Assembly: GCA_903813345.2 (NCBI GenBank)
Contig: CAIIXF020000003.1
Span: forward strand, 1,381,609-1,445,608
Length of the DNA stretch: 64,000 bases
Origin: Owenia fusiformis
Lineage: Eukaryota > Annelida > Polychaeta > Sabellida > Oweniidae
Reading direction: 5' to 3'
The notes under the pieces were generated by a model, which made no database searches, was not told where the DNA came from, and saw only the letters and a program-made list of their open reading frames with translations. The translations under genes were made by a program, and so were the position numbers. This document shows positions 13,359 through 29,000 of the stretch, in pieces; the stretch's first letter is position 1; each line of letters begins with the position of its first letter.

Positions 13359-13824
13359 TTAAACCTGCACATCGCTCCAAAACGCAATATGTTGACATAT
13401 ATCGTTTTTACAGTTTTAAGCTCTAATATAAAGTTTATGTAAATAAGAATTGTTTTTTCTGCGTAATATCAAAGAACAATCATTTAGTTAAAAAATAAAT
13501 AAAAAGGGAAATACGGGATTCGAACCCGGGCCTCCCGCGTGCTAAACGAGAATTCTACCGTAATTATAAGCTACTTATTTTGAATGCTATGATTCGGAAG
13601 TGACGTCACGTTCTTCATTTAGAAACCTTTCCAAAATCATATCGTCGGCGCCGATCGAAGCAATTCAATGAAAAATCTTTGAAATGACACATTTACCGTA
13701 AGTATTTCTACACAAGAGTTGCCCCATTTGTTCATCATTCTATAATCTTTCATTCAGCTCAAAATGATAAAGTTCACCCCCGAAACAACCCAAGATTGCG
13801 TTTTGGAGCGATGTGCAGGTTTAA
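13359..13824. mobile_element. 466-bp DNA element with perfect 30-bp TIRs and internal tRNA-like sequence
   Basis: Positions 13359-13388 (starting TTAAACCTGCACATCGCTCC and ending AAAACGCAAT) are the exact reverse complement of 13795-13824. The five bases outside each end are TTATT (13354-13358 and 13825-13829), a plausible target-site duplication. The interior has no ORF but carries a tRNA-Ala(AGC)-like sequence on the minus strand. Perfect TIRs and an intact duplication suggest recent insertion by a transposase supplied elsewhere. The superfamily is not assignable from the ends alone. Confidence 0.8.
13506..13579 (-). tRNA. tRNA-Ala(AGC)-like pseudogene inside a TIR element
   Basis: The minus strand shows a good T arm with a perfect B box (GGTTCGAATCC, stem CGGG/CCCG). 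It also has an anticodon arm CTCGT-TTAGCAC-GCGGG with anticodon AGC in a 7-base loop, and an oligo-T just past the 3' end. The D arm is degraded. The 5' acceptor bases do not pair with the 3' ATTTCCC, so it is unlikely to make a charged tRNA. It could serve as an internal pol III promoter or be a captured tRNA or tRNA-SINE fragment. Confidence 0.6.
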
Positions 13825-28214: not shown

Positions 28215-28535
28215 AAAAAGCTATTTAACATGATGTGGGTGGCACTTTCTTGTGTCACCTTGTACCTTTGTCTTCCAAAACTGGTCTTGCTTTGATTACG
28301 TGAGTGTCATTGTGAAATTCCCCCTCACCAGATCCTGATTGTCTTTAACTATTGACAATGATTTCTTTTTCTAAACTATTGACATCTAGAATATCATGTA
28401 TGAAGTACGAAAAACGTACACTATATGACATAAAGAATATTGCTTGCAAATAACGAGCAATTCTAGTGTTTATTTGCTTCGAATTGCATGTTATAACCAG
28501 TAATCATCACTGACAGAACGCAGACAATAACTGCA
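28215..28535. other. No gene seen
   Basis: Spacer between the 519-bp array and the 164-170-bp array. No coding or structural feature was recognised. Confidence 0.35.
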
Positions 28536-28539
28536 TATA

Positions 28540-29000
28540 TGGAACACAAATATATGCAGCTGCATATAACAAACATCCACGGAGAATACTGACTGCATAT
28601 ACGGGTACTGTCACTGAGTATATTTGCTTATATTCAGACATACTTTGCATATTTGCTGTTTACTTGTGATTATATGCAGCGCAGAGACTGCATGTATCTG
28701 CTTATTTGGGACAGACAAATATAAGCAGCTGCATATAACAAACATCCACGGAGAATACTGACTGCATATTTGGGTACTGTCACTGAGTATATTTGCTTAT
28801 ATTCAGACATACTTTGCATATTTGCTGTTTACTTGTGATTATATGCAGCGCAGAAACTGCATATACCTGCTTATTTGGGACAAATATAAGCAGCTGCATA
28901 TAACAAACATCCACGGAGAATACTAACTGCATATACGGGTACTGTCACTGAGTATATTTGCTTATATTCAGACATACTTTGCATATTTGCATATCTCTTG
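28540..29000. repeat. Three diverged ~165-170-bp tandem units rich in AGCTGCATATA
   Basis: AACAAACATCCACGGAGAAT occurs at 28568, 28738 and 28902, with matching flanks ACTGTCACTGAGTATATTTG and CAGACATACTTTGCATATTT. Each unit contains the near-palindrome TATAAGCAGCTGCATATA. Spacing is 170 then 164. Confidence 0.85.

Follow-up and report, generated by a model that had tools for sequence, protein, structure and literature searches.

Excess substitution in a tRNA-like pol III unit carried by a dispersed TTAA-flanked MITE of Owenia fusiformis

The stretch of Owenia fusiformis DNA analyzed here (the window, 64,000 nucleotides) contains at positions 13359 to 13824 a genuine but decayed copy of a dispersed MITE that carries the remnant of a pol III gene. 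When copies of this element are aligned they are nearly identical, apart from the pol III unit. Parsimony on a tree of 85 copies assigned 346 changes to the 86 sites of a block that holds the unit (4.0 per site) and 257 changes to the 333 sites outside (0.77 per site), an excess that coincides with the predicted transcribed unit, whose ends are likewise predicted. The sequence-only reading of the window had seen the tRNA-like unit, and the hypervariability of the unit went unnoticed. We propose that a TTAA-inserting MITE captured and spread a tRNA-Gly-like pol III gene whose mutation rate is raised by germ-line transcription, a reading whose chances we place just short of even.

The window element is bounded by perfect inverted arms of 30 bp (13359-13388 and 13795-13824, spacing 406 nt). 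These arms had been taken as the inverted ends, but the TIR proper is 26 bp long, because the outermost four bases of each arm are the TTAA target-site duplication, identified from the window sequence and family TTAA counts at 13359-13362 on the left and 13821-13824 on the right. One TIR (ACCTGCACATCGCTCCAAAACGCAAT, 13363-13388, plus strand) was delimited by inverted-arm detection and by genome matches of the end, and the other (26 bp, 13795-13820, minus strand) by inverted-arm detection. A TTATT repeat, formerly considered the target duplication, lies outside the TTAA and is most likely due to chance, since among the 70 copies with TTAA on both sides it was found in one, the window's own.

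Between the TIRs, the copy alignment defined two conserved segments of element body, 13389-13489 (3' of the tRNA-like unit and the right part in tRNA sense) and 13560-13794 (5' of the unit and the left part in tRNA sense). The unit remnant (13503-13559) was delimited on the minus strand by sequence and alignment. That strand carries an A-box remnant, the AGC triplet (13541-13543) in a tRNA-like anticodon loop, a B box (GGTTCGAATCC, 13516-13526) and a T-run, the oligo-T terminator region at 13490-13505, which appears on the plus strand as an A-rich run. The B box, AGC in its tRNA-like loop and the oligo-T run of the earlier description are thus all present, but the tRNA body is not intact: the alignment shows that a loss of 32 bp from the 5' part of the unit has removed the leader together with most of the A box. 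The junction of this private deletion (13559-13560, minus strand), located by copy alignment and junction search, matched one place in the genome at up to 3 mismatches.

The genome searched comprised 498 Mb in 525 contigs. A 27-base element end gave 517 matches at up to 2 mismatches and a 28-base tRNA-like core gave 322 matches at up to 3 mismatches, with 0 matches for either reversed-pattern control. A DNA search, in which 40 of 714 candidates were scored, yielded the window's own copy of 466 bp together with 29 more, which measure 493-506 bp at 87-91% identity; all were cut out. Among 105 loci, 76 copies had both TIRs recognized; TTAA adjoined the TIR on the left (in tRNA sense) in 71, on the right in 75 and on both sides in 70 of the 76, a count biased at one end because many loci were fetched by a pattern containing TTAA there. 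The element consequently displays the features of a MITE, with 26-bp TIRs, a fixed TTAA, a length of about 495 bp and many homogeneous copies. Its termini (AGCTGGAC / ACCTGCAC) follow the form AC...GT. In subfamily A the TIRs match and the left end begins AC, and in subfamily B the left end (AGCTGGACT...) begins AG. Subfamily C is a shortened MITE (about 340 bp in most copies measured) located at one fixed TTAA within another dispersed repeat, the left edge of which lies near GGAATGTACTAAAAACCCTTCGACCC. Its 11 copies (L037, L040, L043, L062, L068, L078, L087, L094, L095, L097 and L103) and the host repeat seem to have spread as a composite.

The tRNA-like unit and the TIRs travel together, because, of 65 loci selected solely by an exact TIR, 59 carry the unit, at least in part, and checks of core matches agree. 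Among the 65, 54 aligned across the unit, five held part of it (L059, L063, L069, L090 and L106) and six did not align across it (L045, L066, L067, L070, L071 and L072). Conversely, 50 core matches were checked, namely those among the matches listed that fall inside the C1-C3 stretch spanned by listed end matches. An exact 3' TIR lay within 250 bp in 38 of them; of the 12 remaining, five had an exact TIR end within 3 kb and seven had none nearby, and these seven, once fetched, all matched the MITE (five full-length and two truncated). No lone unit without the MITE was seen among the 45 core matches resolved of the 50 checked in C1-C3. Both outcomes that could have reduced the association to a chance nested insertion, copies lacking the tRNA-like part and tRNA-like parts lacking TIRs, were examined in part, and within that coverage the association stood. 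Nested insertions were present in MITE copies L031 and L069, L032 and L033 break off within the unit, and in L046 a TIR end adjoins another insertion. The nested insertion of L031 (400-1590, about 1.2 kb) lies just before the tRNA-like unit and has, by eye, inverted ends (GCTCACATGGTG / CACCATGTGAGC) and internal repeats. Locus L046:1-1549 has perfect 38-bp inverted arms (1-38 and 1512-1549), the first of which stops at the start of a MITE TIR; after it comes an element whose inverted ends are of the ATACAGGGTGGGCCAAAA type.

Judged by its sequence elements, the unit is a pol III gene remnant with A box, B box, T-run and AGC triplet in which the acceptor stem is unpaired. In 89 alignment rows, the A-box pattern was recognized in 76 copies, the B-box core (GTTCRA) in 82, AGC in 75 and TTTT in all 89, and 0-4 of the 7 acceptor pairs could form. 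ARAGORN called no tRNA in the window, and when 11 MITE-bearing loci were searched with Rfam at E<=0.05 none matched a tRNA; the tRNA-Gly genes included in that search reached up to 66.7 bits. The alanine identity assigned earlier had been drawn solely from the anticodon and is not sustained, the body of the unit resembling the tRNA-Gly(GCC) genes of this genome, which were found by pattern at 19 places. The unit and these genes have in common most of the 3' side of the D arm, the anticodon stem and the T arm; they differ in the anticodon loop (TTAGCAC with AGC in the MITE unit, CTGCCAC with GCC in the genes) and in the acceptor halves, which are unpaired in the unit. Our best guess is that the unit is of tRNA-Gly origin, the comparison having been made with tRNA-Gly(GCC) genes. 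Two loci (L126:1-5101 and L128:1-2501) are tandem tRNA-Gly(GCC) arrays of 17 and 10 genes (ARAGORN) with several decaying units; in the L126 array, the T loop of three units contains an additional GATC, and two of these three score 28.1 bits (Rfam cut-off 29). A hidden stem pairing the leader with the 3' end of the MITE unit, sought through covariation of the two, was rejected: the helix with a copy's own partner measured 3.99 and the re-paired helix 3.98, and 142 of 300 shuffles did as well.

Structure also favors, between the two origins put forward by the sequence-only reading, the capture of a tRNA by a DNA transposon over the acquisition of TIRs by a tRNA SINE, because the element has TTAA targets and TIRs, and the unit is internal, with no tail and no variable duplication. 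The tRNA-like A box, B box, T-run and many copies are held in common with tRNA-derived SINEs. The MITE differs from them in its TIRs and TTAA, in the internal position of the unit, and in having no tail and no variable target duplication; furthermore, its internal unit would not transcribe the entire element. With TTAA MITEs of the piggyBac and Kolobok types it shares TIRs, a TTAA duplication, a length of about 0.5 kb and hundreds of homogeneous copies, and it departs from them by carrying a pol III unit. The TTAA duplication fits piggyBac and Kolobok alike. Resident piggyBac elements have TTAA-anchored pairs at 7 of 8 loci (one locus has none) that begin CTCATT, CTCTTT, CCTTTA or CCCATT, unlike the MITE, which begins ACCTGC or AGCTGG. 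In the search for an autonomous partner, the 8 best piggyBac loci matched the MITE ends at no more than 12 of 16 bases, and these loci were rejected as the autonomous source, the TIRs not being common to them. Longer copies bounded by the TIRs were inspected as well; those that could be interpreted were nested insertions, and no autonomous partner emerged. The rule 5'-RR...YY-3', given for Kolobok termini in a passage of PMC9587614, is half obeyed: the left AG of subfamily B fits, and the right GT and the left AC of subfamily A do not. In the open-licence literature searched, no earlier account turned up of a tRNA-like unit inside a TIR element, nor of a unit hypervariable in this way.

The hypervariable block is an 86-bp segment that extends from about -17 (before the mature tRNA start) to the T-run. 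It was defined in an alignment of 91 of the 105 loci, the 14 loci without a single match spanning the block being left out (L031-L033, L045, L059, L063, L066, L067, L069-L072, L090 and L106). The 85-copy tree was derived from these rows by omitting L024, which is identical to L023, and the diverged L041, L074, L082, L089 and L096. Changes per site amounted to 7.5 in the leader (-17 to -1), 2.8 in the body, 6.3 in the 3' acceptor and 1.2 in the T-run. None of 20000 site permutations yielded a comparable 86-site window, a tree built without the block gave the same excess (75 full-length copies), and the excess was present in subfamilies A and B separately. Both edges are sharp, with 11 changes at -16 against 0-4 per site at -32 to -17, and, at the other edge, 1-12 changes per site (+60 to +69) dropping to 0-2 (+70 to +74). 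In three 8-bp bins of the leader there were 0.084-0.097 changes per copy-site (82 rows), and the hottest 8-bp bins outside the block had 0.038 and 0.028 (reference-copy starts 399 and 175). In subfamily C, differences from the consensus affected 5.7% of sites in the block, 1.4% in the rest of the MITE and 1.0% in the host repeat (11 copies). The fixed position of this subfamily suggests that it spread together with the carrier repeat, and in that case the excess would be independent of the MITE's own transposition.

Substitutions in the block are recurrent, with all three alternative bases seen at 24 of its 86 sites (3 of 333 outside), and 266 of the 346 changes fall on terminal branches. They also reveal a strand asymmetry that is absent outside, with 70 C>T against 32 G>A and 54 T>C against 24 A>G (p about 0.004 each, changes treated as independent). 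Decay of CpG as sole cause was ruled out by the excess at non-CpG sites (4.10 changes per site in the block versus 0.69 outside); at CpG sites the values were 3.72 and 1.87. An early count of variants found in at most 3 copies had given an excess of about 2-3-fold and was replaced by tree-based counts, because recurrent changes at hot sites were left out of it. A transversion-rich spectrum suggested by that early count was discarded (transitions 200/380 in the block versus 122/267 outside, p 0.09, 82 rows).

Small indels showed no clear excess, with about 27 in the block compared with 16 and 32 in two outside stretches of 85 and 70 sites. The block figure derives from 116 events counted in 90 rows after discounting a private 1-base gap of the reference row, which is why 89 rows show at least one block indel. 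Among the 11 copies of subfamily C, four have lost 5-21 bp within the block, L068, L094 and L103 have larger deletions also outside it, and L087 and L095 lack one 8-bp unit.

The reading that we tentatively favor would unfold as follows. A non-autonomous TTAA-inserting MITE would have captured a pol III gene that resembles tRNA-Gly and has the anticodon AGC, and would have carried it to hundreds of sites, where pol III would transcribe the inserted copies in the germ line. Transcription may cause the transcribed segment to mutate about 5-fold faster, and the leader about 10-fold, while the remaining element would mutate at the neutral rate. Mutation would be highest where the polymerase opens the DNA and where termination occurs, and the unit would then decay, as the window copy may exemplify. 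The persistence of promoter parts in the copies, at the frequencies given above, is in favor of this proposal. According to passages of PMC8113476 that cite Thornlow et al. (2018), tRNA genes undergo transcription-associated mutagenesis and their immediate flanks mutate at raised rates. The excess described there and the one in the MITE both involve a pol III unit together with the sequence directly 5' of it; the former is seen in the flanks, whereas the MITE unit itself shows the excess, presumably because its copies are neutral.

Several results are neutral toward germ-line transcription as the cause or count against it. Leader changes do not follow element age (rho 0.10, p 0.38, 82 copies), whereas body changes do (rho 0.38, p 0.0005, 82 copies). 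Copies with A- or B-box changes have 2.36 leader changes (n=56), versus 1.54 in copies without them (n=26), and these values do not support a self-limiting hypermutation in which the promoter dies and the rate falls. The sense-strand excess is of T>C instead of A>G, which is not the usual transcription-coupled direction. The share of changes on internal branches is higher in the block (80/346) than outside (33/257, p 0.0015). L023 and L024, apparent haplotypes with 98.05% identity across 3.49 kb, do not differ in their element, which has 1 block change and 8 outside, which is uninformative or mildly adverse. Small indels show no clear concentration within the block, and the deletions of at least 5 bp in subfamily C also occur outside it. 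Finally, in the three real tRNA arrays examined the leader excess was mixed in direction, the values at -16 to -1 and at -35 to -17 being 0.059 and 0.020 in 16 Gly units, 0.012 and 0.061 in 10 Gly units, and 0.079 and 0.053 in 8 units of an array called Lys.

The unit could also mutate without being transcribed, if G+C-rich tRNA-like DNA stalled replication or formed hairpins. The highest G+C of the element indeed lies around the unit, and the 5-21 bp block deletions in 4 of 11 subfamily C copies are of the kind expected, although larger ones also occur outside. We nevertheless regard such intrinsic mutability as unlikely: the hottest stretch is the A+T-rich leader, the T-arm and B-box part is the coolest of the block, non-CpG sites in the block are about equally hot at G/C (3.83) and A/T (4.32), the RNA of one copy is predicted to fold no better than shuffles do (z -0.73), and the changes are asymmetric between strands. 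Gene conversion, either homogenizing the flanks ectopically while the block retains old diversity or swapping the block with a tRNA-like pool, appears slightly more doubtful still. Block divergence is about 11% even in the 11 pairs with a mean flank difference of 0.2%, as conversion would produce, but a flat relation between block and flanks is also expected from Poisson noise under a star-like burst. The occurrence of all three alternative bases at many sites and the predominance of terminal-branch changes resemble point mutation, and conversion would need to stop at the same pair of edges in each of three subfamilies. In addition, no block donor outside the MITE was seen among the core matches checked.

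Diversifying selection is improbable. Under this alternative the pol III transcript would be targeted by host small-RNA silencing and lineages with altered leaders would escape, which accords with the high variability of the leader and 3' end, the retention of A and B boxes in most copies, and the 80 block changes assigned to internal branches. The majority of changes lie on terminal branches, however, and the excess is also present in the MITE that is carried inside another repeat. Since the hypervariable segment matches the predicted primary pol III transcript from end to end, it is conceivable that diversity is written by an RNA-templated process and not by passive damage, the transcript being copied back into the element with errors and the unit thereby diversifying itself, though we consider this a distinctly remote prospect. 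An assembly or polishing artefact, for which the near-identity of copies outside the block might be held responsible by making read placement hard, is the least credible cause of all, as errors are not expected to stop at both ends of the unit, the copies lie in different flanks on several contigs, and three subfamilies agree.

Selection on the gene body makes the mutation rates of tRNA genes difficult to measure. In the MITE family a pol III unit is available in hundreds of copies that were placed independently and are presumably neutral, with internal control sequence on both sides. If transcription is the cause of the excess, the family would map pol III-linked mutagenesis at single-base resolution and in different genomic contexts, and its copies may be a natural record of how active transcription damages DNA. 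The family would also illustrate how pol III promoters can be scattered across a genome by a DNA transposon.

Two additional observations were made. Contig C483, which contains locus L029 (G000:C483), looks like an alternative haplotype of part of C2 (G000:C2:17904040-17905756); about 1.96 kb with a MITE copy and a neighboring repeat correspond there to about 194 bp, and no clean empty site was found in this comparison with C2. The window itself holds at 28527-28990 a tandem array with a 169-bp unit, 2.8 copies and 93% matches.
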